A DNA stretch of 64,000 nt from Isoetes taiwanensis (taxonomy: Eukaryota; Streptophyta; Lycopodiopsida; Isoetales; Isoetaceae), in the NCBI GenBank assembly GCA_021234155.1, contig JAJEKV010000128.1, positions 1,961,736-2,025,735 on the forward strand, given 5' to 3'. Both the position numbers and the translations under genes were made by a program. Numbering within the stretch: the first letter of the stretch is position 1; each line of letters begins with the position of its first letter. Shown here one piece after another: positions 20,070-58,576 of this stretch. The notes below the pieces were generated by a model, which worked only from the letters and a program-made list of their open reading frames with translations, ran no database searches and had not been told where the DNA came from.

Positions 20070-21640
20070 GGGCCCTCCAACATGCCACGTGAGCTCCAAC
20101 ATGCCACATAGGCTCCAACATGCCTCGTGGAGCATGCCACCTAGCATGCGTGCCACCTAGGCTCCAACATGCCACCTAGGCTCCAACATGCCAAGGTGGC
20201 TCCAACATGCCACCTAGGCTCATGCTGCCAAGGTGGCTCAAATATGCCACCTAGGCTCCAACATGCCACGAGGCTCCAAGATGCCACCCAGGCTCCAACA
20301 TGCCACACCTACGCCCAACATGCCACATTGGCTCCAACATGCCACCTAGCATGCCACCTAGGCTCCAACATGCCAATTGGGCTCCAACATGCCACGTGAG
20401 CTCCAACATGCCACATAGGCTCCAACATGCCAAGTTGGCTCCAACGTGCCACCTAGGCTCAGCTCTAGCATGCCACCTAGGCTCCAACATGCCACCTAGG
20501 CTCCAACATGCCAAGGTGGCTCCAACATGCCACCTAGGCTCCAACATGCCACCAAGGTGGCTCAAACATGCCATCTAGGCTCCAACATGCCACCTAGGCT
20601 CCAACATGCCACCCAGGCTCCAACATGCCCTCGTGAGCTCTAGCATGCCACCCAGGCTCCAACGTGCCACCTAGGCTCCAACATGCCACCTAGGTCCAAC
20701 ATGCCAAGGTGGCTCCAACATGCCACCTAGGCTCAAGCATGCCAAGGTGGCTCAAACATGCCACCTAGGCTCCAACATGCCATGCCCAACATGCCACCCA
20801 GCATGCCACCCAGGCTCCAACATGCCACACCGGCTCCAACATGCCAATGGGCTCCAACATGCCACGTAGGCTCCAACATGCCAAGTTGGCTCCAACATGC
20901 CACCTAGGCTCAAGCATGCCAAGGTGGCTCAAATATGCCATCTAGGCTCCAACATGCCACCAAGGCTTCAACATGCCAATGAGGCTCCAACATGCCACCT
21001 AGGCTCCAACATGCCACCTAGGCTCCAACATGCCACCTAGGCTCCAACATGCCACGTGGGCTCCAACATGCCACCTAGCATGCCACCCTAGGCTCCAACA
21101 TGCCACCCAGGCCTGGCCGCACCACGTGAGCTCCAACATGCCAAGTTGGCTCCAACGTGCCACCTAGGCTTCAGCATGCCAAGGTGGCTCAAATATGCCA
21201 CCTAGGCTCCAACATGCCACCATGGCTTCAACATGCCAATGAGGCTCCATGGGTCAAACATGCCACCCACGCCCAACATGCCACGCGGGCTCCTACATGC
21301 CAACGCGGCTCCAACATGCCACGGAGCTCCAACATGCCCTCGTGAGCTCTAGCATGCCACCTAGGCCCAACGAGGCCACCTAGGCTCCAACATGCCACCT
21401 AGGCTCCAACATGCCAAGGTGGCTCCAACATGCCAACTAGGCTCAAGCATGCCAAGGTGGCTCAAATATGCCACCATCAGCCCAACATGCCACGTAGGGT
21501 CGCAACATGCCACCTGGCTCCAACATGCCACGCGGAGCTCCCCAACATGCCACCTAGGCTCCAACATGTCAAGGTGGCCCCAACATGCCACCCTAGGCTC
21601 CAACATGCCAAGGTGGCTCCAACATGCCACCTAGGCTCCT
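20070..21640. repeat. 19-bp minisatellite array, about 1.57 kb
   Basis: The basic unit gccacctaggctccaacat (19 bp) repeats about 80 times with a variable centre: cctagg, aaggtgg, acgtgag, acattgg, aagttgg or acccagg. The spacer ctccaacatgcca is much more constant. Occasional units are shortened, for example ctagcatgcc. Because 19 is not a multiple of 3, a frame repeats every 57 bp, giving open frames on both strands that I do not regard as proteins. The array abuts the inverted unit of the preceding satellite. Confidence 0.92.
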
Positions 21641-25800: not shown

Positions 25801-27413
25801 GTTTAAATCTCAGTAGTCTATTCCAAGATGTTATGTCTAGTAGCATTTTGTGGCCCAATCTGTTATGAAACGACAACCGGCAATATGGATGTTATGTCCA
25901 TAACATCTTCTATGTTGTGACATTGATCCTTTTATTGCGCTCCTCCGCCATAGCCATGGTCGAACCCTCTGCCATGAGCCCTCAACCATGACAGGCTCAA
26001 AATGCAAACTCCGATTAATAAGAACAACATTTTCATTGATGCCAGCGTAGCTAGAACTTTAGGTATGTTCTTAAAACAGAAGAGAATGGTTTTCACAAAT
26101 TCGGCTTGCCATTTGATAGTACAGTTATAAATTGGGGATGCCAGAGTCTGGCTATGGGGACCACATGCCATACTTTGGCACGAACTAAACTCGAGTTGTA
26201 GAAGACTAACCAAGCAAGGATCCAAACTCTGGTTACAGCGGAATTGGATTTGAAACTTAGAACTAATGGCATGACGAAGAAACTCAAGGAGATTGCTTCT
26301 CTAGAAAGTACCTAGTGCCTATTATCGTAAATCAGCATGTGTTTATGCAAGAAGGGATCAAATGGAAGCCATATGCATCAACGATGGAATATTGTGCAGG
26401 CTGCCAACCTAGGCCAAGCTTGGCTATGGCGACTACTCTGCCAAATGCTTCGATGTAACACACCTAGGGGGTTGAGGGCTAAGTAAATGATTTTTATTCG
26501 TAACCTTAGGTTAAGAATATTTAAAAGAATTGCAATGGTTGGGAAACAAATTGAATATGATATCTATATTAAGGTACGGTAGATATCTGAGGAAAAAATA
26601 GGGGGAATATCTAAACTAGAATAACTAGAACGTCGGGCATTAGTTGTGGATGTGTGGAATGGGTAGATGTAATGGAGTTCGTAAGTGAAATAGATAGTTG
26701 TAGGTTTGCCATGTCTATAGATACAATGGAACATGAAGATGTTATAAGTATTTTCCATATCGAAGTGGGCAAAGAATGGATATTCCTGCAAAGGATAAAA
26801 TTTGACCTTGAGTTTAAGCAGGAACAAAGTATTAAAGAAAATGCCTGCAAAACCTATCCAAATTTAGTTGTCAAAATGCCATTTTTTAGTTAAAACAATG
26901 TTACAATGTCTAAACGGGTTGCTCAAGCTGTCCTCAAGCTAGAAGTGTGAGGTTCCTAGCAAAAAGTGTTATTTTTCTTTTGCAATATCTGTGCATATGA
27001 GGCGAAGTTGATGTTATCATTCTGGGAGCTGCTGGCACTAACGTTTGAAAAGTAAGTCTTGTAAATCCCTATGTGCAACTAATCCTAATACGTAATACAA
27101 CTTAATAGTTCAACAAACACTAAGTACCTATATTTACAAAATAATTTGTCACCCTGATTTCACAAATATCACCACCATTTGAAGTGCATGAGAAATGAAT
27201 GCTAACAAATATCCTAACGTAGAACCACCTCTTAAAAATCCTTTTTAGCATTTGTGCAACTGCAAGTGTTGTGAGAGAAGGCCCAATTGGCAAATTTGAC
27301 TCACTCAAATATTTTGGCATCATGTTGGACATGAGAGCAAAACAACATTGTCTATTTCATACCAATAAGTGTTTCCCGTAACTTAATCTTGTGATTCTGT
27401 GGAAAGATCACAT
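22851..27413. other. Long stretch with no recognisable gene
   Basis: Frames here reach about 120 codons but show no domain. Between 23260 and 24450 the base composition is somewhat richer in C and pyrimidines. A small duplication with the G-box core CACGTG lies at about 25032-25115 (gccacgtgttagtatatgattggt and gccacgtgtcgatatttaattggt), each followed by caaaat or aaaat. I cannot say whether these act as regulatory sites. Confidence 0.5.
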
Positions 27414-27738
<325 letters not shown>

Positions 27739-30002
27739 GTTTGCATTGTAGGTTTTATCCTGATACATATGGAATCATGAGACTTGCACAAGTGGCTTGG
27801 TGCAAAAATATTCGGTATAGCCTAAACTACATAATGAACATTGTAATAAGAATGAATGGGTATTTGTACAATTACTTATTTGCATGCAATATTTGGGTTA
27901 GGGTTTTTCTAGCGACTAATCTACAGAGGAACGCCATCTATCGTAACCGTTTTTCAAGGAACAGTTGCAGATGAGCGTGTGCAGACACTCCGTCTACCGC
28001 CTTGAGAAGGTACTTTTCTCTTTTCAAGAATAGGTTTATCCAAGGATTTGGATGTCTAAGAACACTTGCCGAAATAGGACTGAACTGGTTAGGTACACAT
28101 CCGGCCCGGTGCATAAATAATGGATAGAATAAACCCGATTGGGTCCATGAGGGCCTTAGCGTCTTCCTTGCGCCTGATGAAGGCTATTTTTGTGTTGCGT
28201 TTTGTTGATGGGAAGGAAGAAGGGTGACCTGAATATGGCCACCAGAAAAGAGGTTAGAATTTGAGAAAAACAAATGGGTCCTAGGAGTAAGAAGTCGTTT
28301 GATTTTAGAAGAGTTGCTAAAGGCCTGTGATGAGAATAAGAGTGGCCGGACCAATGGAGGGAAAGACGGGAATACCATTGTCGTTAAGGTGGGAAATACC
28401 GAGGAAATGATGAAACCGAAGGGCATTGATGCCGCATCCGGGCATGGTCGGAAGGTGGTGAAACTATGAACATGGCAACAACTACAACTCCACATCCGGG
28501 CGATTTGCAAAATTCAAGTTCATTCGTGTTCTTATTTCATATTTTGGAACCGAAAATGGTAATTTGTAAATAGATCACCCATTGGAAGGTTAAATATGGA
28601 TACATTATGCTTGTATGAGATCCAAGATAGTTGGATGACTTAATAACTATTATTATTATGATTTGATTGAAGATTTGTAAATATCTATGAATGCATATAT
28701 GATAATACATAATATGGGAGTGTAGATCTTAGGAATAGTTAAAGACAAGGTAAGATCTCGAGATACTTCATGAATAATCTATAAAAATGAAATCCATCGA
28801 TCCGGGTTAGAAATGTCCGGCTGGATACCGTTTTTCAGGGCCATAATGGGCATGGAAATCCTTGATGCATAATACTAAAAGATCCGAGTAGACTTATGCT
28901 AATTTACGGGAATGGTAAGATTTGTGTATTATATGAGTATAATGTGGGATTCTCCATGATCGCACACACTAGGGGTTTGCATAGCAAAATTATAGATGAT
29001 TTACAAGTTGTAAGCAGGAACATCTAATCACTATATCTAGTTTTAACTGATTTTGAACATAGACTAGGAAGCTTGCTAGTTTGTTTTGCACCATATGGCT
29101 GAAAGTATATAAGGCTAAAACGTGAAGACTTTATGGTAAAGGAGTTCAGCTGGCATGTGGAGATCTGGTTATAAAATGCAGATTTAACCCAAATTTAACC
29201 TGGTAATGGGGAACAGGAGGAACTATGCAGATCCTAAGATTTAACTTGCACATTTATGTCATCAAACATTGTGGCTTGGTGAAGGGGATAAACCCAAGAA
29301 AACCTATAGCTTACCTATCAGTTCTGCCTTAATTACCCTACCTTGGCTAATGTTTGGTCTGTTTAACTGTAGGTAACCAGGTTTTCTTGCTCCAAGCTTT
29401 GATGTTTTTTAAGCTATGGTTGTATATTTCAAGATATCAAATATGTAGCATAATAACAGGGGGTTTTCTTTGTGTTTTTGTACGCTTTTCACAAAGGTTT
29501 TCCCAAGATTTCAAGGCGTATTCGAATGGATGTACTAATGCGTACATCTAGAGTGCACCATTTCTTAGTCGTTGATTTAGCTTTTTTTTTTCAATGGTCC
29601 AACATCCAAGAGCTCACAACAAAAGCCCTCTTTTTATTTTAGGGGCTGATTTTCCCTTGAAAAATCAATTATTTTTAAGTAAAAAAAACAGACATGCAAG
29701 CATCGAGGTCCCTTATTTTAGGGTTCTTTGAGGAAAGGGTTTGCTTTACGGTAGCCAGATTTGCTTCCGGAGAAGAAACTTCTATGTTCCCTGCCTCTTC
29801 CGGCATAGTAACTCCGGCCCAGAAGCCCTGTTCGGCCTCTATGTTTTTGTAAATTTCTATGGCAACTCAAAAAGCTTTGGAATGCACAGATGAATGCTTG
29901 AAGCTTGTTCTTCTTCCTTCTACTTGGATGTTTAGAACCCAGTATAAGCTTCTGCTGGAGATACTTCCTTCATGGATGAGACCAGGAACAGAGATTAATT
30001 GT

Positions 30003-30265
30003 TAAAGTCCATTGTCAGATCTTTTTGTGGATGCCCACAGTTCATCACAAATGTCTGAAAAGCTAGGACGTTTATCAGACTCATACTCCCAGCAACGGTG
30101 AAGCAGGTCCTTAAAGCCAGAAGGAAGGGTCTCAGGTAAAGCAGGCCTCTTTCCAGCCTTAAGAAGTTCTCTTAATTGTGTCATTGTCTGCTTACGAGGG
30201 TACAGCTCCTTTCTATGGAAATGGTGACATGCGAAAGCAGTCTGATAAGTGTCATTTATTACAGT
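30003..30265 (-). pseudogene. Protein kinase C-lobe fragment (TKL-like)
   Basis: The minus strand reads in one open frame through about 85 codons: TYQTAFACHHFHRKELYPRK, then MTQLRELLKAGKRPALPE, PSGFKDLLHRCWEYES, DKRPSFSDICDELW and a stop. This is the end of a protein-kinase domain: the subdomain X helix with KRP, the RCW of subdomain XI and the conserved arginine in RPSF. The pattern is that of plant tyrosine-kinase-like (TKL/Raf-like) kinases. The ATP site, catalytic loop and activation segment are absent, so it is a fragment carried by R1. It lies 150 bp from, and in opposite orientation to, the hydrolase exons, so the two came from different genes or were rearranged. Confidence 0.82.
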
Positions 30266-30415
30266 TCAAAGGGTTATGCTGCCCCTTTTTCTTTATCATT
30301 GCAAAATGGAAACATCAAGTATGATTTATGATGGATAGGCTAGCATATATGCAGAGTATTTTTCATGCACCGACTAGCCCTAAGCTTGAATAAATGCATG
30401 AGGTTTTCTTTGCAG

Positions 30416-31440
30416 GCCCTCAAGGTTATACAGGATACAAAGTCATCATTAAACAGTGCGTCTACTCTGAACGGAAAGTTACAGTCATCTCCAGCTGCTC
30501 CATACATAAGAGCAACAGAGTTGATATTAGAATCAGTTGAGATGAAACCCATGCTATTTTCCTTGCTTGCAGTCCTTTACAACCAGTATTTGCATCAGCG
30601 TCAGTAGTGTTGCTGTTGGAAGGAATACGCAGTGGTATAATTGCAGCAATTAATGGTTCTGCCGAAGCTGATCCTTTAACTTCTGATAGTATAAGGAATG
30701 AAATGACTGGTCAAACAGTATGTGGGAAAACTAGGAGACGCAAGTGCAAGAAACAAAGTGGAAATGTACACATGAAGAATGCTACAATTTCACATTCTGT
30801 TTTGGACAGACAGTAGATACTTATTACAGAAGGTGTAGTAGTGTCTACTACTTAGGGACAGTTAAGGTGCCTCTTCTGTGCGTCAGCTCCTTGGATGACC
30901 CTGTTTGTACAAAGGAAGCGATCCCATGGGATGAGTGCAGGTACCGATGTTATTCAAGTTCAGCCAGGTCGATTGCTTTTATTTTAATCTTGAGATACAG
31001 GTCAAATCCCAACGTAGTGCTAGCCGTGACAAACCATGGGGGTCATTTGGCCTTTTTCGAAGGTCTAACAGCAAAATCAATTTGGTGGGTACTTATTTTA
31101 AATTTCTTTTGAGGTCTTTTTAGCAAACGTTTATCTAAGGAGCCATTGTAAAATGTTGCTAACATATAGGTGGGTTCCTGCTGCAACTGAGTTTTTGACA
31201 ATCCTTCATGAAAGCTCTTTCATGCACATCCAAAGGAAGGTAGTTTTCAATTGAATGGGCTCAATCTTGTGTATATTATTTTGTAGCTTAATGATGGAAG
31301 TTATTTGTACTTTGAAGGTGAGAAACAGTGAGAGGATATCATTGTTGAATACAGAGGTAGATAAGGGACCTTATCTGAATATGTCTTCAGATGGCAAGGT
31401 TGCTACTGACAGTTTATCTTATCCTCCTGAGGTATCATAG
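30416..31440 (+). pseudogene. EMB8-like alpha/beta hydrolase, C-terminal exons
   Basis: Exon-like blocks follow in order: ALKVIQDTKSSLNSASTL after a TTTGCAG acceptor; a frame with LEGIRSGIIAAINGSAEADP; then VDTYYRRCSSVYYLG, KVPLLCVSSLDDPVCTKEAI and PWDEC. An apparent 60-nt GT-AG intron (30941-31000) follows, then NPNVVLAVTNHGGHLAFFEG and SIW. A second intron starts near 31086, and the next exon reads WVPAATEFLTILHESSFMH, followed by NSERISLLNTEVDKGPYL. SLDDP and HGGH hold the Asp and His of the catalytic triad in the YheT/EMB8 esterase family. The serine-containing N-terminal half is absent. Frame changes separate the blocks, so this is a gene fragment inside a transposed segment. Members of this family in plants are plastid-associated or uncharacterised. 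Confidence 0.78.
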
Positions 31441-32095
31441 TAACAAACAATTTAGTATTTTATTTTGGCATGGTTTATGCGAAGATAATTTTCTTTGACT
31501 GCATATGCAGGATCGACCGTTAACTAAAGCTTGCAAGAGGCAAGATGGAAATGGATCCCTGAAACCCCATAAAGACATGGGAAGAATGTTACTGTGCAAC
31601 TCTTGCCAGTTTATGTGATGTTTTTCATCAAATATTTCATTATTCAATTTGGCTACATTTAAGAACAAAGCATAGCATCCACATGTGAAGGCACTATTCA
31701 AGGTCAGAAAAACTTTTACATTAATTGTGTCCTCTACTTTCGTTTATAAATTGAAATTGTATATTGCAATCTGAGATGTGCAATTAGATGGTTTTACATG
31801 AAGAAGGTGTAACCCTGATTGCAGATAATGTTTCCTATAATCTGGTTCTGGATGTGTACCGTTTATAGTAACTGTCATCTTACATTGGAAATCAAAATTG
31901 TATATTGGACTCAAAGATTTAGAAACATTTTCATACATACAGATGGTCCTGTTTGCTGATCTTTGTAAAACGCAATGGTCCTGTTTGCTGATCTTTGTAA
32001 AACGCATGTCAATATGGAATTAAATGTCCTATATTATGGTTCCCTTTATTGTTTCCATATGTTCTTTATCTATTTGTCTTTATTTTAATAATCGA

Positions 32096-32857
32096 CAAAT
32101 AACCATTTTTTCTGCTTGTTTATTTTTGGCACTTATGTACTTACATAGACAACCTCTATAGTGTATATTTCTTGGCACTTCAATACTTACATAAACAAGG
32201 CTAACGCCTCAAAGTTTTTCAATGTTTTTAGTTTTTTTTTAATATAACAATCAACACACAACTACCATTAACATTATTAACACAAACCATTGCATTTAAC
32301 ACATTTAAATTAAAATTCCTAAAACCCCTTTGGTTTGGGGCATATTCACACGGGGTTACGTGAGGGCGCCGAGCCCCAAGAATATATTTATAATACATGT
32401 ACAAAATTAACACTATTAAGTACATTCTCTCAAACCTTATAGTATTTTTGCAAACCTTAATATACACTATACAAAATTTGTACATGCATACCCCACAAAC
32501 GAGGATCGTTATATGCGGTCCGTGATCTTGGAATAAAGGGCAAATATGCCCATCCGAAAGGCATGTCTCTGAGTAACCCCCTCGGTGAATATGCACCCAA
32601 ACCAAAGGGGTTTAAGGGAATTTTTAATTTAAATGTGTTAAATGCAATGGTTTGTGTTAATAATGTTAATGGTAGTTGTGTGTTGATTGTTATATTAAAA
32701 AAATTTGTTCTTCGGCCCTAACTAAAACGCTTAGGTAAACTTTTATGGGCCGCTTAGCCTTGTTTATGTAAGTATTGAAGTGCCAAGAAATATACACTAT
32801 AGAGGTTGTCTATGTAAGTACATAAGTGCCAAAAAATAAACAACTGTAAGAATATGG
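32096..32857. repeat. Foldback hairpin element, copy B, complete arms
   Basis: The left arm (about 32096-32360) and right arm (about 32572-32857) are reverse complements, from accat…cttgtttatttttggcac to gtgccaaaaaataaacaac…atgg, with a loop of about 210 bp. The outer parts of each arm contain two related sub-blocks (cttggcactt-aatacttacat and ttggcacttatgtacttaca). A 30-40-bp stretch of the left arm (about 32205-32235) is altered or shortened relative to copy A. The right end of this hairpin is also the right end of R1. Confidence 0.85.
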
Positions 32858-33278
32858 TTTGTGTTAAGCACATTCCATATAGAATTCTACATTCTAAAAA
32901 TTATGAAGAATAGTGTATGTAAAACAGTGATAGTATTTTCAGAAATTTATATGATTATGGTTATGACCAAATCTTGGATATATATAATTGATAATTGAAA
33001 TAGAAATTACAATTTATTCGTCTTTGCAACATGTGTAGTCTATTATTGATTGTTTTAACTTTGTCCTTGGCCTAGAAATCGAATCCTGTAAAATTTCTAG
33101 GGCTGCTAATTACAAGCTTGGTATTTCTGAAAGAAATATTAAGGTTGGGAGTCTGGAAACAGACTGTAAAAAGGTTTTTTTTATCTTAGATTCAGTTTTC
33201 TAGTTTTACTAGAAGCTAGGATAAAGTTATGATATTTCAGGAAAAATGGTATACTAAATTGATCATTTGGTTATATAG

Positions 33279-36200
33279 GAACCTGTCAAACTAGTGGAGG
33301 CTGATGCCAATGACCAATGGATAAAAGAACTTGTCCATTTCAAGTATCGTGATTGTGGAATTGAAAGCCCTAACATTGCTGTTCAGACCATTCTGGCTTG
33401 TATCAGGAACAAAGAAATTCATGAGTATATTACTTTCAAAGAGGCCAATATAGTGGACAAGTCAAGGTCCCCCGTTACATGGTTGGGATTCAATGGTTGG
33501 TTGAAATTATTTTATTTCCTAAAGAAAGCCAACTTTGAGTATAATAAATGCAAAGGGCCCATCTTGGAGATATACAACGACATCAACAATATCTTGTACC
33601 AGAGAACGTGTCTTGAAGATGACATGGCACGTAACTTTATGAAAGGCCTCTCTGCCCTGGAGGAGGGAAATGATATTCCCAACTCATTTAATCTTGCAAA
33701 TGAAGAGTCTGCAGAATTAGAGGTATCTGAATGCCTATTTTTGGAGAAAGACTTAGTTATTACTGACCAGACTTTTTGTATCCCTGAAACTCAACAGCAG
33801 GATGGCCTAAGCAATATGGATGAAGTACCAAACCTCACATTGGGAAACTCCTCTTGCTTCCCCATTATAATTGAACAATCAGTTGAATGTCTGGCTGCAA
33901 CTTATGATCACGCTATATGGAAAAGCTAGAATTTCGGTGCTTTGGCCCCAATTAACACTGAATCCTGGATTGCATTGGCAGGGATCACAAAGGACGAAAT
34001 TAGCAAGGCTAAAGCCACAGCAGTTAGACTGGAAAAGGTCTTTAGGTATATTAATCCTGGTTTGCTGTTTGATATGACTTTTTTTGATGAAGTCTGCACC
34101 AAAGACCCAACAATCCAAGTTTGCCAAAAGGGGCACATGGCCTTTCCAACTGAGCAAAGAGATGACTTTTACCTTAAAAGGATGTGCCGCACTCATTGCC
34201 CTTATTTCAAATGTAAGTGTTTTATCTTGCAGATGTGGGATTATCTGGTTTGACCAAGGGATTTGGTACTTGCTAAACCATATGGAAGCAGTATATGATG
34301 GGACTTCCCCAATTGAAAAAATGGTGATTATTTCAAAACTGTTGAACAATGTTTTGAAGCCTGTTGTCATTGCATACTTATCATATTTGGAAGTGAGAAA
34401 GACTATGATTGAGATGACCTTGTGCTATGCAGATAACCCTGAAGCAGATCTGAAAGCACGCTATGGTAACTCTAGAATGACAGATATTGTTGAAAAAAAG
34501 CTTAAACCTATAACCTTTCTCGTTGGAAAATGTGAATTTAATAGTAGAAATACTAAATAGGAGGGAAAGTGTCAAAGGAAAGATTACAAAACTTGTGGCA
34601 AAAGTTATCATAAAAATGGCACCAAGGATCACTATTGATCCTGCTTTAGCAAAATGCAACAGCAATATGGAAGTACAAAAGCCTGCCAGCAATATTTATC
34701 AAGGAAATGAGACCATCAGTAAAGGCGGGAACAAAGTCATATCCATGGAAGAATCTACTCCTTCTGACATTGAACGAGTAGAGGAGACACAATAAAATGC
34801 AAAACTTGCTTGACATTTGTCAGTATAAAAGTTTATAGCATTTGCTTTTATGGATCAATACTTATATACTCAGACTGGAGTATATATAATGTTTTTTGAT
34901 ATCTATCTTGAATACATCCTATATTTTGTCTATTTCTTTGGTTTATGGCTGTGAGTGGAGATGTATTTGGATTTACTAATACTGTTGGTACATGTAGGAA
35001 GACAGCAATCAAAACAGAGTAATCATTAGGGATATTAACAGGAAAAAGCACTTGAAGAGCAATAAGGAAACAAAGCATAAGAGAATTGTACACCTCACAT
35101 TTATGTCAAAAGCTTTGGAAAAAATGGATATCAGACAAGTATTCTATATTGTCATAGGGGAGGCATTGCAAGATAGAGGCCTAGAGTTAGTTGACAATAC
35201 CACATTTGCATGAAGATATGTGGAGCAGCTAAAAGATAAGGTTTATAAACCATATGCTATATTTGCTGAAGGCAAGGGAGCAAAATGTCCATGCAAAATA
35301 CATTGACCCTATAATATTGGGCATGTAAGAACTACTGACTTGGGAATTATCCACAGTTCTAAACTTAGAATGGCGTTTGCCAAGGGACTTAACCATATCC
35401 CAGATTGCAGCTTTAATGTACAAAGCTTTATGGAAGACTTCACTAAATTATGTCAGCAGTTTTGGGAAGTTCATAAATATGACGTTGGACATCAATGATA
35501 TAGATAAAGAAAAAATTACTGAACTGTTGATACAATATGCTCATATGGAAGTAGTTGAAATCGGAAGGAACTTACCTATCAGGAGATTCTTATGGAATGA
35601 TCCTACAGTTTGCAAAAACTTAGAATGGCTGTTACAAAATTTGTATATTTCGGGCTTGGACAAGGCCAACAACAATCCGGCTTTTATATGCCAGAAACAC
35701 ATCTTAGATATGACCAAGAAGAGAATGGATGGAGATGATTTTGAAAAAATAACGGAAGACCCGGATATAATCATAATTCAATGTAAGGATTACATTCAAA
35801 GTATGCTGGGCAGTAACAAAGGCTGTTACAATAAACTTCCCTACCTGATGGCAAGCTTTAAAGCCCATAAGGCTGAATATAGGTGGCTCACAAATGCCTT
35901 CGAATCCATTTTTTCTGAAATGGCACAATGGATTACTGCCATCCTCAATAACATTTTAGAAATCTGGCCATTGTTATGCCACAGACATACTGCTCCTTAC
36001 AGCATGTTCAACAAAGGTAAGATCAATGCGTCATGGATTGTTAGCTCGTCCTATGATGTTATACTGAATTTACCATGCAGAATTAGCAGTGTGTTCTCTG
36101 CAGACATAACAAAATGCTATGAAAATATACCATTATACGGAGATGACGGGATAATTGAGATTCTCAATGACATCAGTGACTTAACACGGGAGCATATGAG

Positions 36201-38010
36201 TATGGACCAACGTAAATTACATATGATTATAAAAGACAAGGAAGGGGTCTTCAAAATTAAATGGGAAAGACATCTCAAAAAAGACATTGAAAAGACATGC
36301 TGGGCTGAGGTAAAGAAGGAAGACTTTAAGAGTATTAATGAATGGTTGCTGACTCACTGTTACCTCCGATCAGGAAACGAAATTTGGAGACAGAAAAAGG
36401 GCATACCCATAGGATTTGCATGCAGCCCAGCCTGGTGCAATCTGTTCCTAGCATGGCATGAATTAAGATTTATGCTTAAACTAGCTCACCACGGAAAGTT
36501 CCAAGAAATTAAGAAATTTGAATTCTTCGCCGGATACATTGATGACCTCGATTGTAATTAATGCGCATAATATTGAATTCTAGGATGGGGCTCGCATGAA
36601 ACCGCCCGATAGATAGGCTTCCGATTTTCTACAATGGTGGACAGGGGTAGCCGCACATACGCGAACTACCCCGCGAAAAAATAAAGGGAAAATCCAATTA
36701 TATCATTTGGACCCCAAAAAAATACAATGCTAATAGATGAGTGGTTGATGTACCGCCGAAAGCTTATCACCGGATTAAAAACCCCGCCTTCGGTTTTCGA
36801 GGAAAACCCTAGTGATAAGCCTCTAAGGGGCTTGGACAAACGTGTAAGGCATAGAAATCGCCTCCCCAAACCCCCGCATGGAGAAGTCGAAGCGGATGCC
36901 GCCACCTGCACTCCGCACATCACCAACACAACAAACGAGACAACACAAACATACCAGGATAGCATCACCTCAAGGGTGAAAAAGCATCACCCAAATGGGT
37001 GGAAGAAAAACATGATAATGTAAATTTGTGCACAATACAATAAACAAAGAAGGGGGGGCCCCATCCTAGGGGGGGAGGGTGGGTTCAAAGAGAATAAGGT
37101 AATCGCCGAGAGAAGAGGAAGCTACCGGATGAGACGCTGATGCCTAACCACGCCTAAAATAGCTTAAACCCCAACTGTGAGAAGGGCATGCGCATGCATG
37201 CATGCAAGACATGCATGCTCGCCCCATCCTAGAATGTCGATCCGATGTCTCCTGGATCGACGGGATTCTAGGATGGGGGCTCGACATGAAACCAACAAAC
37301 CGCCCAGAATACCGAGAGAACTTCCTTATCAAACTAGAATCGAGGGCCTAAGGTCACGGGGATCTAAGGCTAAAGGCCGGAAAAGGACAAAGAAGAAAGA
37401 AACGCCAATTGGCCAAACCAAGCGTGAAGAAGCCCCTCCCCCCGCTTCCGGAAACAATTCAAAGAGAATAAGGTGCTGCCGAGAGAAGAGGAAGCCGATG
37501 AGACGTTGATGCCTAACCACGCCTAAAATAGCTTAAACCCCAACCAGGAAGGGCATGCGCCAAGCATGCATGCATGCAAGACATGCATGCTCGCCCCATC
37601 CTAGAATGTCGATCCGATGTCTCGGATCGACGGGAATGTACTTACCAAACTATGAATGTACCATTTACAATATGGATCATCTGGGGATTAAAGATGAGAC
37701 TATTTACAGGGTTTCCAATAGCGAAAAATATGGCTACATAGCTAATTTTCTCGATATCACAATTAAGGTGGAAGATGTGAACAAGGGCCTCTTTTTCAAT
37801 TTCCAGGTATGATAAAGAGTGAATCTACCCTTTGCCATCTACAAGTTCATTAAAGCGGACAGTTGTAGGCCATACTGGCAAGCCCTCAAGGTTATAATCT
37901 CGCAAATCATGCCATATATGTACTCTTACTGGACTGTGAAGCGACCAAGGATATCCATGACCGATACAATAATGGTTTTGGAAAGAAAGAAACTTTCAGG
38001 ACAGTACTAA
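33279..38010 (+). pseudogene. Penelope-like reverse transcriptase, decayed and interrupted
   Basis: An upstream region begins after a TTATATAG acceptor-like site (33279) and has an unrecognised frame to 33929 and others to 34795. From 35040 a frame with CPCKIH and NIGHVRTTDLGIIHSSKLR precedes the polymerase. The main frame (35377-36561; true start about residue 38) shows LDKANNN (95-100), SFKAHKAEYRW (160-170), SADITKCYENIPL (241-253), RQKKGIPIGFACSPAWCNLF (338-357) and YIDD (36535-36546). After an insertion the frame resumes at 37636 with GYIANFLDITIK and LPFAIYKFI, the last RT motifs. This order (DK motif, KxHK, D…Y.NIP, GIPxG..SP, YxDD, FLD) is that of Penelope-like RTs. TGA stops at about 35209 and 35312, frame breaks near 33930, 34250, 35490 and 36553, and the insertion abolish function. 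No GIY-YIG endonuclease is visible. Confidence 0.82.
36577..37635. mobile_element. Head-to-tail dimer of a small hairpin-ended element
   Basis: Unit 1 (about 36577-37263) and unit 2 (about 37264-37635) both begin ttctaggatgggg-ctcg-catgaaac and both end catgctcgccccatcctagaa followed by gtcgatccgatgtctc…gatcgac and ggga. The last 175 bp of each unit are nearly the same; the middles differ in length. The start and the near-end are inverted repeats (ttctaggatgggg and ccccatcctagaa). Beyond the inverted repeat, each unit ends in a hairpin (10-bp stem, 4-nt loop, 37608-37631 in unit 2). A possible short target duplication GAAT brackets the dimer. It interrupts the RT frame between YIDD and the next motif. 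It encodes no protein that I recognise. Confidence 0.7.
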
Positions 38011-41000
38011 GATATATATAAGAGGAGCATTTCCCGTGCCCCCCGTACAACAAAGGGGATATGGTAAGAACTCTTTATATGAATATACAGGATGACTAAG
38101 GTGCTCAAGTCTACATACTTGAATATTAGAGGGCGGGGCCTTGGCTATGTTAAAGGCCCCTGTTCTATGGTATAGCCTAGACTACATAATGAACATTGTA
38201 ATAAGAATGAATGCTTTTATTTGTACAATTACTTATTTGCATGCAATATTTGGGTTAGGGTTTTTCTAACAGCTAATACAGTGGAATGCCATCTACCGTA
38301 ACTCATTTTACAAGAAACGGTTGCAGATGAGCGTGTGCAGACACTCAAATCAACTGCCTTGAGAAGGTACTTTCTCTTTTCAAGAATAGGGTTTATCCAA
38401 GGACCGGATGTCTAAGAACACTTGCCAAAATAGGACTAAACCGTTAGGTACACATCCACCAAAGGCATAAATAATGGATAGAATAAAACCCGATTGGGAT
38501 GAGGGCCTTAGCGCCTACCTTGCACCTGATGAAGGCTATTTCTTGTGTTGCATTTGTTGATGGGAAGGAAGAACATGTGACTGAACATGGCCAATTTAAA
38601 GAGGTTAGAATTTGAGAAAACAAATTTTGGTCCTAAGAGTAAGAAGTCGTTTGATTTTAGAAGAGTTGCTAAAGAGCCCCGGATGAGAATAAGAGTGGCC
38701 GCACCAATGCAGGGAAAGAAGGGAATACCATTCTAAGGTGGGAAACACCGAGGGAAATGATGAAACTGAAGGCTATTGACGCAGATAGGGCATGGCTCTA
38801 AAGGGTTTTAAACTATGAACATGGCAACAACTACAACTCCACATCCGGGTGATTTGCAAAATTCAAGTTCATTCAGGTTCTTATTTCATATTTTAGAACC
38901 TGAAATGGTAATTTGTAAATAGATCACCCATTGGAAGGTTAAATATGGATACATTATGCTTGTATGAGATCCAAGATAGTTGGATGACTTAATAACTATT
39001 ATTATTATCCTATTGTTTAAATTCGGTTTTTCCGAGGTCCCGAAAAGTTTTTGGATTTTTGAGTTGGTTTATTTGTCTAAGGTTTGGGTTTATTTTGAGT
39101 GCCTAAGAAAAGTTTTCTCGTGAGCCAAAAATCGGGAAGAAAAAAATAGGGCCTCGACCAAGGGAAAAAAAAAAGAGGAGGCCATGGAGGCGAGATTTTG
39201 CCGAGTTTTTTTTGGGATGGGATCGTTTTTTGATAGGATGGCTCTTCCTCACCTGTCGGGAGATGGATAGAGATGGTGGCAGGTTGCATGTACATGCAAA
39301 TCTGAGAGGTATGTTGTATAGCTTCATAGCTAGCTGGATTTGGCATGAAAGGAGGCGGAAATCGCCGGTCATGTTCAGAGAAGAGCAATCATCAATAAGG
39401 TATGGTTATATCTCCTTCTCTCCGTCGATTGTTCACAGTTTTTGTGGGTAGAAAAACCCAAACGACGCTTCTTCATGGGATTCAGCCAAGAGGAGATGGA
39501 AATCGGACTGATAGGAATAGGCTGTGCCTTGCTTTCAGACCTACGCTCCAGCTTTGCTGAAACTATAAAGGTATCATAGTTTTAAACTGGCTTCTCTAAG
39601 TTTCTTCTTGAATCATTTTGTTCCTCTGCGATAGATATTATTTGTTTATTGTTTATCCCAAAGAATTCTCTACAGCAGATTTTATTTTGACTTCGCCCGT
39701 GTTAATGCTTTAATTTCTTTGCTCCTTTGCCAAGCATTCTACGGGTCTGTGCAGGAGGGTCAAAAGCGAAATGGGGAGCATGCTTTAAGGATGGAGGTGG
39801 TGTTTGCACAGATGTAGACATGGAGGCAAAAGGATTAAACTTTTCGGGACAAAATACGAGAGTTAAATCGGCTTGCATAGTTCAGTGTCAGGTGATAGAT
39901 TCACAAACAAGATTTAATAGATCAGTGTGAGCTGCTATATTCTGTTTTGATAGATTCAGAAATGTGATTCTATTCCAGAAAATGAGGGAATGCCTTTTTT
40001 TAATGGATTTGTTTTTATGCACAAATATTTTAGTGAAGAATCATTTGCAGAAGAATGATATGCTCTATGCTATAAGCTGCATCAACGATTTGCAGGTAGC
40101 AATAGTCTTCCAAAGAACTTATGGGATACGCATGAGGTACACAGTTCAATGAGTTTACATAAGCTTGCGTGTTAGTGTATGTTAAATATTGTTTGAATGT
40201 GTTTGAATTGTTAAATAGGTCTGTAGCTTTGCTTTAAGTATAGATAGTTTTGCTTTAAGTGTAGATACCGTTTCTATGCCAATTGGCCTTGGTATTAAAT
40301 CCATTGATTATTAGCCATTGTACGTGTTTCCTGTGTCTATCACAAGCCGGCATTGCCAGATCCCTTAGTTGCTTTCGAGGTAGATAGTTCATTGAGGTTA
40401 GATAAACTTGCACCATTTTCAGATGCAACTGAAGAAACTACTTGCATGGCTTGGCTATGAAATGTACATTAACGATTGTATATTGGCAGATCAAGCCTTT
40501 AGCTTCACAGTCATCACATTTTTTATTCTTAGATACTTGGAAGCGAATACATAAGTGGTATCATCCAGGATATACAGTTCAGGCATTGCAGGCCTTAGAA
40601 GGCAAAAAATGTAGCAGAAGACTCTTTTTCGTTCAATAGCAGAAAACACTATAATGTGCCATGATCTAGCTACTCCCAATATCCTATATTTCCTACCTAT
40701 ATACACATAATCTGATTGTCTCTAATCACGAAACAAACCTTTACTGTTCTAAAAGTTCTCAAGGTTCATTGCAGCTACAAGTTTTGAGCCACAGGACCAA
40801 AAACATCTTTGATTTGCCATATCCAGGTACTCCTAGCCACTAAGAGGATCATAGGTATCAAGGCTCTAATGCCAGATAGAATATCCAGCCTTCTAGCAAG
40901 TTTTGGGTGCATCAAGGACAGCTTAGGTAGAACTAGGTGCTATGTATTGCAGTGACAACTATATTGAATCCGCTTAGAAACCTTGCTTCGTAGCAACGTG

Positions 41001-41321
41001 GCTATTCTATCGTAAGCCTCGCTTTGAGATTCTTTGTAACAGATCCGCCCTCGTTGTCGATTTGGCTCACCGTTGTAACGTAGGGATTTTGTTTTTGGCA
41101 TTTAAAACGTAAAGCCGAGTTGTCTTTGTTCATTTTTGTCTTACAGTGTTTTTGACATGGTGCATCACATGTGTTATGACAGGCATATACATTTAGCTTC
41201 TCCGCACCCTTTGCCGCTCAAAGGCGATTATGACATGGAGGAGGAAGTTTTGCTCATTTGGTTCACTTCCTTGGTTTTCTAATTGTTCTATATGTTGTAC
41301 ATCATATGTGCATGGCTAGCA

Positions 41322-41590
41322 GGTTTGCCGGACAAAGATTTTAGTCCCCACGTTATGACCATTGCTGGTGGAGAAGATGTAGCAATGAGGGTGATGTCAT
41401 TTTCTCAGATTTGGTTTGAAGCTTTATTGCGCACACCAGGTGAACGTTGTCGTTAGACCACCTACGAAAATAGCGATGATGGTGTTCATGGCCGGTGTTG
41501 TCAGAATCGGACAAAATGCTACTGGGGTTGCAATATCTCTTCTCCTACCACATGCAATGAAGATTGTAATGGTGGGATCCAAAAGTCCAG
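41322..41590 (+). pseudogene. AT-hook nuclear-localised (AHL) PPC-domain fragment captured by the Helitron
   Basis: After an AG acceptor-like site (41321), the frame reads GLPDKDFSPHVMTIAGGEDV followed by AMRVMSFSQ (to about 41409). This corresponds to the start of the PPC/DUF296 domain of plant AHL proteins (FTPHVI-V-AGEDV--K-MSFSQ). A later frame (41475-41590) with MVFMAGVVRIGQ and MKIVMVGS may be the end of the same domain, where AHL proteins have an AVAG…VVVGSF pattern. The AT-hook itself is not visible. AHL proteins bind AT-rich DNA in the nucleus and regulate growth genes. Here the fragment is passenger sequence, possibly still with splice sites. Confidence 0.7.
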
Positions 41591-43742
41591 AAAGCCCTTG
41601 AGTCCAAAAACATTAAGTGACAATATGCAATCTCAGGACATGACAATGAGCTGGCAAACTAACCGAGGAAATGAAGAAAGCAACAAAAACGCAGATAGTA
41701 ACATTTCTTTGCCAAGTGGTCGAAAGCACATTTCTTTGTCAAGTGGTCGAAAGCACGCATACTTCATTATTTGTTTCTGTTTCAAACTTTATTTGGGGCA
41801 AGCTTCATCCTTCAATTCGGATTTTGATGATATATCACATGGAGCTCCAGTGCTAATGCTAAGTTTGTCTTTGGCTTTGTTTTAAATGTATCATGAACGT
41901 CTTGGTTATGGGGCTTGGAGTTGGATCCTTGGTTAGCCCATGAATTGGATCTTATGACAGGTCTTATATTGCAAGATCTTTGTTTGCAGGCAGGAAAAGT
42001 ATTTTTTCTTTCTTCGATAAATTACTTCGCATTCTATGTTGCCAGAAAAAGATTAGACGCATTTGAGCAGTGATCTACCTGCAAAATGTTGAGAAATGGA
42101 CTCCTAACTAAACAAATGCTGGAAACATGTAACCCAAATCCAGGTAAAATGATCGAGCCAACTGATCTGGCAAATCCTATGCTGATTTCAAAGGAAAAAC
42201 ATCTGCTTACAAATAAAATGCCGATCGATGGGCTTCTACCGGGACGACCTAAAGATGAGATTGTTGTTGCGACTTTGCCGTTTGAAGCCGTGAAAAAAGG
42301 CAGAGGATGAGAATCATCCCGGTATGATTACGTTTAGAAAAATGCTCATTTAAGGAAAAAAAAAAACTCTACGACTACAGCATTTACAATGCATGCGCTC
42401 GACTGATTCCATGCAACTGTTCCTCCACAAGATATTTCTTGCAACTCAACATCTTCCTTTTGTTATGTTATCTCCGGTCGCTGGGCTTGGCTTATTTTGC
42501 ACACATTCCACCACCTCCATAAATCTCCTCCTTCTATTCAAATATTATGCAAATATTCTTCCTTCCTCACTTCCAGGCCTAGGGTTTGCCTTTCGGGCAA
42601 CCCAAAAAGAAATGCATGTTTAGTATTTTCTTTTTCCTTTTTTTTGATAAATTAGTTGACATGCATGTAATGGCATTACAAAGCGCACTATATGTAATCG
42701 ACCAATAAATGTTTCTATGAATGCTTATCATTTCTTTTGTAATGATTACTTTGATTTGGAACAAGGAGACCTAGAAGGATTTTAAGCCCTTTGCATATAT
42801 GATAACAAAATATCCATACATTAAGGGATCACATATCCACATCATGTTTTCAATAGCAAATGAACAAGTTACATCCATAGGGATCACTTATCTACATTAT
42901 GTTTTCAATGGCAAATGGACACGTTACTACTTTGACGTCTGCCATCTCAAATTCTATAGCCTTCATGGTAGTAGATTTGAGCAGCACAAAATAATATAAA
43001 ACTATTTACGCAATTTCCATCTTGCAAAAAGTACCACTAGACTAAGCACTATATACGACATTTTTCAACATAGATAATTTTCATTAATAAACATGTTGTT
43101 TTTAAGCATCACCATATACATAGTTGTTTGTTCAACATTATATAGTTGTTGCACACAACTATAAAACAATATTGCACAACTGTTTGAATGCACCATGTCG
43201 TCCATCCTAATGGAAAACATTGTTGCCAAAGTTGAGCAACTCAATTTCGCCTTTCTTAATGGCGAAAATAATGTTACCAATTTAGTTCGATAATATTCAA
43301 AAGTGAATAGAATAGCATAATAATTGTGCATTCTAATCTTCACAAAAATTGAATTGACCCAAGAATAGGGGTTTACAACAATACTCTTCAATAACCAGTA
43401 ATTATTCATTTGCCCAGCGACTTTGGCAACTCCGACCCAATACCTCCAAGCACTTGAAAGTTCAAAACTATAAAGCATACGCTAGCAACTGGATATGGCG
43501 ACTATGTGAGGCGGTCCTACCATTCGAAGATCTTTATGCCAAGTGCAAAGGAATAAGAGGTTCCTATCCTATTTGCCAACTGCAAGGAAGCACGTTTCTG
43601 ATCCTGCTTCATCCTCGACACAATAGAGGTATCCTAACATAACATTATGATTACTATGTTCCTGCCAAGCATACACAACTTAACTGGGGATTGTTGAACA
43701 TTAAAAAGTATAATTTATTCTATAGTATACATTACAGCTAAA

Positions 43743-43770
43743 GCCCGGCAACGCCGGGCACCATTACTAG
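43743..43770 (+). terminator. Helitron 3' hairpin and CTAG end
   Basis: A 7-bp GC-only stem with an AAC loop is followed 11 nt later by the end of the element (CTAG). In Helitrons this hairpin is taken to be the rolling-circle replication stop signal. Confidence 0.9.
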
Positions 43771-44795
43771 TTATTATTATGATTTGATTGAAGATTTGTG
43801 AATATCTATGAATGCATAGATGATAATACATAATATGGGAGTGTAGATCTTAGGAATAGTTAAAGACAAGGTAAGATCCGAGATACTTCATGAATAATCG
43901 AAAAAAATAAAATCCATCGATCCGGGATAGAGATGTCCGGCCGATACCGCCAGGGCCATAATGGGCATGGAAATCTTTGATGCATAATACTAAAAGATCC
44001 GAGTAGACTTATGCCGATTTAGAGGAATGGTAAGATTTGTGTATTATATAAGAATAATGTGGATTCTCCATGATCCGCACACGAGGGGTTTGCATAGCAA
44101 AATTATAGATGATTTACAAGTTGTAAGCGTAAACATCTAATCACCTTGTCTAGTTTTAACCGATTTTGAACATAGACTAGGAAGCTTGCTAGTTTGTTTG
44201 CACCATATGGCTGAAAGTATATAAGGCTAAAATGTGAAGACTTCATGGTAAAGGAGTTTAGTTGGCATGTGGAGATCTGGTTATAAAATGCGATTTAACT
44301 CAAATTTAACCTAGTAATGGGGAATAGGAGGAACTATGCGCATCCTAAGATTTAACTTGCACATTTATGTGATCAAACATTGTGGCTTGGTGAAGGATAA
44401 ACCCAAGAAAAACCTATAGCTTACCTATCGCCTCCGCCTTTAATTACCCTACCTCGCTAATGTTTGGTCGTTTAACCGCAGTAACTGTGTTTTCTTGCTC
44501 CAAGCTTTGATGTTTTTAAGCTATGGTTGTATATTTCAAGATATCAAGTGTTAACGTTCCATATGGAATTCTACATTTCTGAAAAATTATGAAGAATAAT
44601 GTATGTAAAAAAAGTTGATAGTATTTTCAGAAATTTATATGATTATGGTTATGACCAAATCTTGGATATGTATAATTGATAATTGAAATAGAAATTACAA
44701 TTTATTTGTCTTTGCAACATGTGTAGTCTATTATTGATTGTTTTAACTTTGTCCTTGGCCTAGAAATCTAATCCTAATTAATTGCAAGCTTGGTT

Positions 44796-55905: not shown

Positions 55906-58576
55906 CATCCCCAAGGACATTTTTGAAGGATCAAGCCTTTGAGCGGAAGTGTCAAAGCCATGGCTTGATCTTGCTAGGTTTTACTGAGATATTAGAGTTG
56001 AACAGATGACACATAATGAGAAAATGCTAGCATATGGTAGTGGAAATCATAACAACACAGGAATGAAACTAAAATCCAATAAACCGATGAGACAACATAG
56101 AATTAGAGGAAAATGCAGAATCTTAGCACTATTATCAATCCATTCTAGATAAAAATAGGTTAAAAATGCATGCATTTGGATGCTAGAAAGATCTTGAAAA
56201 CCATTGTCCATCGAAAACAACTTATCTTATAGGACGAAAGGTAGAATTGCTCTTTCCAAACTTTGTTCGAACATGTTGAGATAGCATCAAAACTACCGGG
56301 TAAAAACTATCAAGATGAACATCATGCTTCACATTCTCTTAAGTTGATTGACACAAAAAAGTAAATGCTAACTATGATAAAACCCGCAAACGGACTCCAT
56401 CATTTCAAGATGGTAAGGTGGAATCACATTTTGGCCCTAATGTGCAAGAAGCTATATCACACAACCAAAGCGGGGAGGTAGCTAACAATGCATGCAAGCT
56501 TGGTTAATTATAATCTTGCTTCTAGATGGATTTCTGCAGATTGCCACAAAGGCCAAAACTCATAGATTTGTGGCCAAAATTTCGCCCTCAAATTTTCAAC
56601 ATGGAAAGGGGCCAAGCTATACATCCAAATTGCTACAGGCTCTCGTTTGTGCAAGAGCCGATAATGTAGGCTTTGATTTTAACAATTTTGCTCTAACAAA
56701 TAAAAGGCTAATGGCTATGGCCACCAGGTATTTCATGTTATATTAATAAGTTTGACACTTTTAATCATTCCGCAGCCCATTGAAATAAAGGAAATTCCCA
56801 TTGCTTTTCCTCAGATAGGTCCAGAGGTCGAGCAGCTGGTAGTCACTGTGTAGGTCTATTTCTTGAAAAAAAATCATGTTCTTGATTTTGATAGCATGTT
56901 CTTGCCCTAAAGCCTTGGCGCAAAGGCAGTTTGAGCTACCGCCATGCTACATTCTATGGAGGCAAGAGATGTCGCGTAACTATGGGTACAGCTTTTCAAG
57001 ATCTCTTATCTTTCTTTATCATAATAGTACAGTGTGTTTTTGTTTGCTTTAAGTTAGCAATTTCTCCATTTTGAAACGAATTTGGCTATGACAAAGGGTG
57101 CTTGTGGCTATGAAAATCTTTACAAAGTGGATATGGCAATAACAATGCAAGTCCTGGTTAGTTCTATGGCAAGCCATGCCGGTTCTAGTTAGCATATGAT
57201 ATCATGCAAAAGTATAGCAAGACAAATAAGACAAATATGGAACTTCAAAGAAGAGCTCGACGTAAAACCCAAAGGAAAAGAAAGCTTATGCTCACATCAT
57301 GTGGCGTAATCCGCTGGGCCATTCGCGAGGAAACCAAACCGCAGCACCAATCAACCAGGGCAAAATAGTGGCCACAAATATGGCATGCACTCCTTACCGA
57401 CGCACCTTTGCCGCGACCGAAAATCCCTCCTGAATATATCTTCCTAGATGCCACCGAAATGCATGCAGATTGTGTGGCATCGATGTGCCACTTGACGGGA
57501 TTAAGGGGAAATCTCGTGAAAATTTTCTCCGTAACTAAAACTTCTATGATTTTTGGAATATCGGGAAAAGTTTCCGACCTCCGTAAAACCCAAGAATCTT
57601 ACTAAATCGCATAAAAAAAATTCCAAAAATATTTTCCGCCAAATCGAAAATTCCAAATTAACAAGATTGATTGATTGTTCGGGTTGTTGTTTCAAAGTTG
57701 GTTGTGTACAATATTCCCGAATATCTATTAAAGGGGATTGATATCCATATACAGATCTGAGCATTGCTTAGTGCAAGAAGTTGAGGGCATGTAATTATGA
57801 CATTTATGGTGATTAAGATTTATGCATTTCATTGCATAAAATAGGATCTGGAAAAATGTGAGTAAAAAGACAGAAATAGGTTTATTATTGACTACTGATG
57901 CATAAATTTAACTGTTACATGGCATGGTACATGCCCTCTGTATGAGTGTAAAAAATTGAATGCTGTATGCTGATATAATGGAAGCTGGAACAGACTTATA
58001 GGAGTTATTCGTGATTGTTTGATCTATAATGCTGCTAAAAATTTTTTGTACATTGTAATAATGGTTAAACTCTTATTGGAGTGGCATTAGGTTGTAGAAA
58101 CAGGGCATATGTGCTGATCTATATAAATAGAGCTTTGGGTGTATATGTGACTGATCTACAGGATTATAAGAACAAAGTGGTAATTAATGCATTAGCTATT
58201 GTATATTGCAGTAAATATAGTGAGCTTTCAGGGGGTCTTTTGAGTGTGTTACTCTTGTGAATGGATCTGTATGATGTTGGATACATAACAGGGTCTTAAA
58301 GCAAAAGTCATAAGCTTTGCTGCTAATAATAATGGGCAGTTTCCACATTAAATTTTTAGTATTTACTGATTGCAAGCAGTGTGAAGGGGGATAACCTTAG
58401 AGGACCCCATGACACCTGCTAGTAGCTTAGACTCTTACCCATGAATTTGGCTAACCGTCCTTTGGTTCTACTGCAGGTAACAGGGTCCTCTACTCTCTGC
58501 TTTGCTTTCTTTTAATTAAGGAGCTCGTATTATGCTGTTTGGCTGGAGCATAGAGTTAAAAATGGTATTCTTGTTC
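55906..58576. other. AT-rich stretch with no recognised gene
   Basis: The only notable frame (56492-56746, 84 codons, with AKTHRFVAKISPSN) has no recognisable domain. 57605-57668 resembles 8166-8225. The part at about 58380-58520 has a layout similar to 29280-29400 (…gctaa-gt…ggtaac-agg…), a hint of a distant relative of the PLE direct repeat that I cannot establish by eye. Confidence 0.4.

Follow-up and report, generated by a model that had tools for sequence, protein, structure and literature searches.

How does a reverse transcriptase (RT) of the Penelope type reach new sites in a plant genome if no endonuclease travels with it? The question is raised by a 64-kb stretch of the quillwort Isoetes taiwanensis genome (GenBank contig JAJEKV010000128.1, positions 1,961,736 to 2,025,735, forward strand; hereafter the window), in which an original prediction placed an endonuclease-free Penelope-like element (PLE) at 33279-38010. 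The best explanation as a whole, held at a probability of roughly 0.6, is that the locus is a decayed copy of a PLE family that has no recognizable GIY-YIG endonuclease, is dispersed rather than telomeric, and would follow the splicing and priming scheme proposed below. The genome searched is an assembly of 1,658,258,908 bases in 1110 contigs, and the window lies on contig C939; C numbers denote contig copies, L numbers genomic stretches, and C939b is a copy 51 kb from the window copy.

The core of the prediction holds. Every RT string that it listed is present and in order, as is the upstream CPC…H…HVRTTDL block, and the proteins of a genomic relative (L011) align collinearly over 33279-38078 by tblastn: open reading frame 1 (ORF1) in three pieces (residues 1-315, 321-431 and 433-510 at 33279-34223, 34225-34557 and 34559-34792) and RT in four (residues 1-169, 168-518, 529-625 and 629-680 at 34998-35489, 35482-36552, 37639-37929 and 37935-38078). 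The predicted extent does not: comparison with C612 and C939b gives an element of ~27737-44795 with three nested insertions, one of which (36578-37634) lies inside the predicted stretch. The frames upstream of RT do encode a conserved protein that cannot be assigned, as had been supposed; they are pieces of one gene, ORF1, and not separate frames. Its ~510-aa product matches no known domain, and it ends with its own stop codon in eight of eight aligned copies. By tblastn, the window holds no RT or ORF1 besides this copy.

Is the family a relic, as the prediction had it? The term fits the window copy, with its in-frame stops and frame changes (Table 1), and is limited to it because the frames of many other copies are open and ratios of nonsynonymous to synonymous substitution (dN/dS) are low for both genes. 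A 1.5-kb piece of the RT region has 41 DNA matches in the genome, and the 410-aa window frame used as protein query gave 3538 first-look candidates, the best 102 of which were scored (both counts include the query itself); with so many relatives, the window RT is not a chance frame. For ORF1, the best 84 of 3867 first-look candidates were scored, so that 186 RT and ORF1 matches are listed in all. No stop falls in the matched part of 76 of the 102 RT copies (hand count), a list that holds only the best-scored copies and is thus biased toward intact ones. At least 44 of the 84 listed ORF1 matches and at least 44 of the 102 RT matches have the other gene within 4 kb among the matches listed. The genome search for intact copies, proposed with the prediction, returned near-complete copies with RT frames of ~690-700 aa and ORF1 frames of ~510-520 aa. 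For RT, dN/dS is 0.046-0.094 in the 8 of 28 pairs that could be computed (the other 20 are saturated); for ORF1, it is 0.056-0.082 in five of six pairs. A dS below 1 is seen in just two RT pairs, with ratios of 0.094 and 0.084, and a dS near 1 in a single ORF1 pair (0.079); dS is at least 1.8 in the remaining pairs, whose ratios are rough. From these sequences, the family looks alive and apparently recently active.

The Penelope-like character of the RT is supported by a conserved set of motifs, known from PLEs in general: DK, KxHK, motifs A-D and the thumb recur in alignments of 10 copies each. Across all 10 of the diverse copies aligned, some as little as 51% identical, no substitution occurs at two cysteines (C97, C99), the motif A aspartate (D376) or either aspartate of YxDD (D522, D523). 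In the RT alignment, ~98 residues separate D376 of motif A from motif B at 474; an insertion in the fingers is a known feature of Naiad/Chlamys PLEs. Profile matches are weak, at best 2e-6 for RVT_1, below its curated cut-off, and 5e-5 for a group II model; these apart, searches of Pfam, NCBIfam and PDB profiles for other RT classes gave only chance matches. An LTR retrotransposon was considered and set aside: in the copies scanned, neither gene matched a Copia-type RT (RVT_2) or an integrase. For ORF1, the sole PDB matches were two chains of TGF-beta receptor 3 (E 0.11 and 0.73), read as chance hits, and AlphaFold gave the 410-aa window RT frame a predicted local distance difference test score of 34.8. 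No relatives were confirmed in viral contigs, prokaryote genomes or phages. The RT of TERT is related to that of PLEs; unlike TERT, the quillwort family is a multicopy mobile element, and the genome holds a separate TERT candidate of its own (PF12009).

What surrounds the two genes? Pseudo-LTRs (pLTRs), their coding exon, nested insertions, T-tract and (ATT)n junctions and a structured RNA were all absent from the original prediction. Copies have the order pLTR-ORF1-RT-pLTR, with direct pLTRs of ~2 kb that are 95-98% identical within one element in five copies (C1084, C612, C1064, C1027, C1038); only short pieces of a pair were found in C963 and C1055, and none in C1019 or the window by the same comparison. 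Head-to-tail copies lie ~6 kb apart at C1007, C1060 and C1038b, and the repeated unit of C1058 is ~8.5 kb, other DNA included. The 3' repeat starts ~142-146 nt past the RT frame (C1064, C1084, C612), and between the 5' repeat and the ORF1 exon lie ~92-97 nt in C1084, C1064 and C1038 and 48 nt in C612. The pLTR also carries a first coding exon, MGRKKGDLNMATRKRLEFE...LQNSKxIQ; a tblastn search recovered it from 17 of 23 sources, counting the locus of the query itself. It did not turn up in L028, L019 or L061-L064, the last four being short stretches that may not reach the exon. By pattern match, this exon ends in a phase-0 CAG/GT donor at nine places in seven sources; the remaining sources gave no match to the pattern. 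Splice-like 3' sites directly precede ORF1 in seven of seven aligned copies (upstream CTAA in five, TTAA in two) and RT in eight of eight (upstream ACTAA in seven, not in C1084); both acceptors are phase 0 and have branch-point-like strings. One exon with two phase-0 acceptors would allow two proteins by alternative splicing; genomic copies retain intron-like sequence, with its donor, branch-point-like strings and acceptors. An ATG/GT donor inside the RNA block described below was dropped, as its ATG is not kept, and the pLTR exon took its place. The spacer between ORF1 and RT (34796-34997 in the window, and in relatives) holds TGACATTTGTCA-like and AGCATTTGCTTT-like strings in eight of eight aligned copies, possible signals.

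The pLTR pairs also bear on assembly quality. Of 28 multi-base differences within pairs (C1084, C612, C1064, C1027), 24 touch CWG sites (CTG/CAG); such sites hold 59 of all 142 differences while making up 10-12% of columns in these four elements, an enrichment computed without control for event length. By this bias, base-calling errors at methylated CHG sites of the long-read assembly are the likely source, and assembly error may lie behind a number of the stops and frame changes as well.

Is the endonuclease truly missing? No GIY-YIG domain was matched in ORF1 or RT by Pfam at E<=10, and the nearest of the best 150 of 263 candidates for PF01541 lies 35 kb from any of the 186 listed RT and ORF1 matches, in line with the absence first predicted; in the copies scanned, the two genes matched neither of the domains that the prediction had set against itself, an integrase and GIY-YIG. 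The closest known relatives appear to be the Naiad/Chlamys PLEs, a clade reportedly described by Craig and colleagues in 2021. These elements have a CxC motif before RT, an N-terminal GIY-YIG, an insertion in the fingers, pLTRs and tandem copies, no known hammerhead ribozyme and a bias toward microsatellites, and they occur in lycophytes. The quillwort family is alike in its CxC motif, its pLTRs and tandems, its lycophyte host, its lack of a hammerhead match and its insertion at simple repeats, with (ATT)107 at the window copy and T-tracts beside all 13 of the 3' ends read as external in a small, related sample. It differs in that no attached GIY-YIG was found and in having a separate ~510-aa ORF1, a pLTR-borne first exon and a structured RNA. 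The rDNA (ribosomal DNA) targeting of spike-moss Chlamys was not seen here, although no dedicated search for it was made. By these clade features, the family would be a PLE nearest to Naiad/Chlamys without its endonuclease; it is not called Chlamys, since the endonuclease was looked for and not found.

Could the enzyme be present in disguise, or supplied from elsewhere? If an unrecognized N-terminal GIY-YIG sat in ORF1 or in the pLTR exon, a Chlamys-type PLE would cut its own targets; the invariant C97 and C99, the pLTRs, the repeat-rich targets and the lack of a hammerhead match in Rfam (13 loci at gathering scores, four loci at E<=10, window 27400-45200 at E<=5) all fit, yet this is unlikely given the Pfam scan, which covered ORF1 and RT and not the pLTR exon, and the 35-kb gap to the nearest of the best 150 PF01541 matches. 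A split system, in which ORF1 and RT depend on a stand-alone GIY-YIG protein in trans, finds support in the short GIY-YIG matches of the genome, at least 150 in number, and in L037, where one of them is followed 1.8 kb downstream by a PLE-like 3' end. It is highly improbable: a PIF1/Helitron-like helicase, named by reading of the translation, lies beside the GIY-YIG frame in two of the four loci examined, which weakens a role in trans, and L035, L036 and L038 hold no DNA common to PLE loci. The best 150 matches are short, with frames of 118-144 aa in these four loci (L035-L038, on C941, C1019, C1030 and C1041), and in three of them part of another conserved frame precedes GIY-YIG. They are possibly Helitron-like elements carrying a GIY-YIG gene; L037 is one of the helicase-flanked loci, and its PLE-like 3' end is taken as a separate insertion.

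The reading of a dispersed PLE family without a recognizable endonuclease gains a further element from the pLTR: a ~145-nt block between the exon donor and ORF1, hence within the putative first intron, which appears to form a structured RNA. It folds at -48.7 kcal/mol (z -5.28), and none of 200 shuffles is as low. RNAalifold on 19 copies gives 43 pairs, seven of them changed on both sides. A covariance model built from these 19 rows finds the block in 22 of 25 sources (34 matches); 14 of the 22 supplied model rows and eight are independent (L021, L023, L025, L027, L061-L064), among them four of four divergent copies probed by 1.3-kb stretches (L061-L064). In the wider alignment, 22 of the 43 pairs are changed on both sides and 95.9% of cells pair, a level reached by none of 500 shuffles and none of the slid controls (5-11 pairs); because the structure guided this alignment, the pair counts lean toward it. 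Re-paired stems are plain by eye in L063 and in the copy at window position 58361. Against Rfam, 13 loci gave no match at gathering scores, and six sub-threshold, unrelated matches at E<=10 (four loci) and E<=5 (window 27400-45200) all fell outside the block. Might it instead be inverted-repeat DNA or a small-RNA source, conserved by chance or by silencing? The block is a strong inverted repeat, and many of the positions at which the two pLTRs of an element differ are CWG sites; the 22 compensatory pairs, even from a structure-fitted alignment, the G-U pairs on the coding strand, which suggest that the sense RNA folds, and the similar place of the block in the pLTRs of divergent copies make this account improbable. 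Hypervariable sites in the block were at one point considered biological and were dropped on the CWG bias of pLTR-pair differences.

Where do copies end? Five pLTR pairs were compared, a sixth row (C1058) being left out because it is no pLTR pair. Long T-tracts follow the 3' ends of C1084, C1064 and C1038; on the 5' side, T-tracts adjoin four of the five and an A-rich stretch adjoins C1027. Among 20 further 3' ends, drawn from the 40 best matches of one query and thus a small, related sample, 13 are external by reading (automated sorting marked 15 as possibly external), and all 13 enter T-tracts of at least 12, single interruptions allowed; four share the C930 flank, which leaves ~10 independent ends. 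Five others are internal (T6-7, then (A/G)TCTT), and those of L055 and L058 were judged internal to another subfamily. The window copy begins where (ATT)107 stops. Most of the ends read lie at short T runs beside T-tracts or (ATT)n. Runs of at least 10 identical bases are few in the 64-kb window: one of T and five of A.

These junctions bear on the telomeric association suggested with the original prediction, for which no sign was seen. PLEs without endonuclease, EN(-), are said to have been described by Gladyshev and Arkhipova in 2007. In the accessible parts of the sources, such elements (Athena, Coprina and those of Selaginella; PMC12477314, PMC9033089) resemble the quillwort family in having an RT without GIY-YIG, and a review table lists them for Selaginella, pine and spruce (PMC9033089). 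If the family were such a telomere-associated element that extends chromosome ends, the lack of a GIY-YIG in ORF1, RT or near the listed matches, and the reports from Selaginella, would be as expected. That is quite improbable: no telomeric repeat of two or more units was found in the window or the copy loci examined, copies sit inside large contigs (at 5.4 of 10.4 Mb, for example), 3' ends lie at T-tracts instead of telomeric repeats, and the genome has its TERT candidate. Unlike EN(-) elements, the quillwort family is dispersed, with T-tract or (ATT)n ends.

If the family is a dispersed PLE without a recognizable endonuclease, how might it move? In the proposed scheme, the first exon would be spliced alternatively to ORF1 or RT, yielding two proteins with a common basic N-terminus, and unspliced RNA would be the template, to the exclusion of spliced forms: the intron holds both the RNA block and the start site. 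The intronic structure, ~350 nt upstream of the 3' end, would serve as the recognition element for the RT complex. Reverse transcription would start internally, at a U7 run just 3' of the pLTR, by analogy with a lizard PLE for which the available text describes a start inside the RNA just after the pLTR and cutting of AT-rich DNA (PMC11167929). Priming would be by A-ended 3' ends in A/T tracts or ATT repeats. A nucleic-acid-binding role is probable for ORF1, and the DNA ends may be supplied by breaks already present in such repeats or by an unrecognized ORF1 activity. As far as the consulted portions of the literature on Penelope/Poseidon elements go (PMC11167929, PMC3846280), these share with the quillwort family pLTRs, tandem arrays, AT-rich targets and, if the scheme is right, retained introns and the internal start just 3' of the pLTR; they differ from it in having a C-terminal GIY-YIG, a hammerhead and one gene instead of two. 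A broader and decidedly tentative idea likens this to the marking of genomic RNA in retroviruses: with the recognition structure and the RT start in the first intron, spliced mRNAs would yield protein and only unspliced RNA would be copied; the intronic RNA would possibly be a new self-cleaving or RT-binding class at the hammerhead position of other PLEs, and ORF1 would replace GIY-YIG with a new function in integration or RNA binding. For an Adineta vaga PLE, antisense templates are discussed as a reason for intron retention in the part of PMC3846280 seen, a possible account here as well.

Several points weigh against the reading preferred here. A GIY-YIG too divergent for PF01541 would escape detection, and the comparison took in the best-scored candidates (150 of 263 for GIY-YIG, 102 of 3538 for RT and 84 of 3867 for ORF1). 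Placement among PLEs draws on motifs known for the group, and splicing is deduced from DNA. The RNA model missed 3 of 25 sources (L018, L019, L028), and the block was not found in two of two narrower stretches at guessed positions (L065, L066). Finally, in two of the five pLTR pairs the 3' junction departs from the rule: C1027 shows no more than T7, and C612 reaches 49 bp past the usual end and meets no T-tract.

Template choice and integration of PLEs are poorly known, and a dispersed, apparently recently active family without a recognizable endonuclease separates reverse transcription from DNA cutting; its intronic RNA offers a testable reason for intron retention in PLE copies. A family with over 3,500 first-look candidates may lie unnamed in the I. 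taiwanensis genome: no description of it or of its RNA was found in the literature searched, with most subscription papers outside reach, and "Penelope" does not occur in the accessible main text of the genome paper (PMC8566536; supplementary data outside scope). Elsewhere, Chlamys PLEs are listed for Ectocarpus in the available part of PMC12477816.

Table 1. Parts of the window copy and related features (positions in the window).
Feature	Position	Strand	Basis and remarks
(ATT)107 microsatellite adjoining element 5' end	27416..27736		Tandem Repeats Finder; element begins where repeat stops
5' pLTR, part 1	27737..29443	+	~79-81% identity to both C612 pLTRs
First coding exon in 5' pLTR, MGRKKGDLNMATRK..., broken	28208..28520	+	End approximate, from C612 alignment
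Structured RNA block in 5' pLTR, in putative first intron	29260..29404	+	Covariance model R1, 170.6 bits
Nested insertion in 5' pLTR	29444..32864		Absent from C612 and C939b (flanks continuous)
5' pLTR, part 2, terminating at AGG-T8	32865..33182	+	Sequence and comparison with relatives
ORF1 exon, 3' splice-like site AG 33277-33278	33279..34795	+	Stop 33927; frame changes near 34224, 34558
RT exon, 3' splice-like site AG 34996-34997	34998..38098	+	In-frame stops 35211, 35304, 37810, 37813, 38019; frame changes; insertion; 3' end approximate
Nested insertion, ~1.06 kb, between RT motifs C and D	36578..37634		C939b carries same insertion
3' pLTR, part 1	38165..38999	+	Alignment to relatives
First-coding-exon copy in 3' pLTR, broken	38560..38876	+	Terminal donor CAG/GT
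Nested insertion in 3' pLTR at ATT-rich site	39000..43770		Absent from C939b, continuous there
3' pLTR, part 2	43771..44795	+	3' end shorter than in relatives, approximate
Structured RNA block in 3' pLTR	44371..44512	+	R1, 119.9 bits; among 19 model-building rows
Divergent structured RNA block, no RT or ORF1 beside it in window	58361..58507	+	R1, 48.8 bits, E 3e-10

The ~1.06-kb insertion in RT, GC-richer and with an internal duplicated segment (37084-37265 and 37458-37635), ties the window copy to C939b: as both carry it, they share a history after its arrival. The flanks of the other two insertions run uninterrupted in C939b. The lone divergent RNA block, judged from its sequence and setting, is a putative solo or non-autonomous copy. 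Just past the element, a fragment at 45239-45349 shares 46% identity with the first exon carried by the pLTR. Elsewhere in the window are Copia-like fragments at 12325-12741 and 51659-52117 (RVT_2 6e-28; Pol_BBD 9e-6, just under its cut-off) and, at 20075-21639, a GC-rich minisatellite with ~82 copies of the 19-bp unit CTCCAACATGCCACCTAGG.

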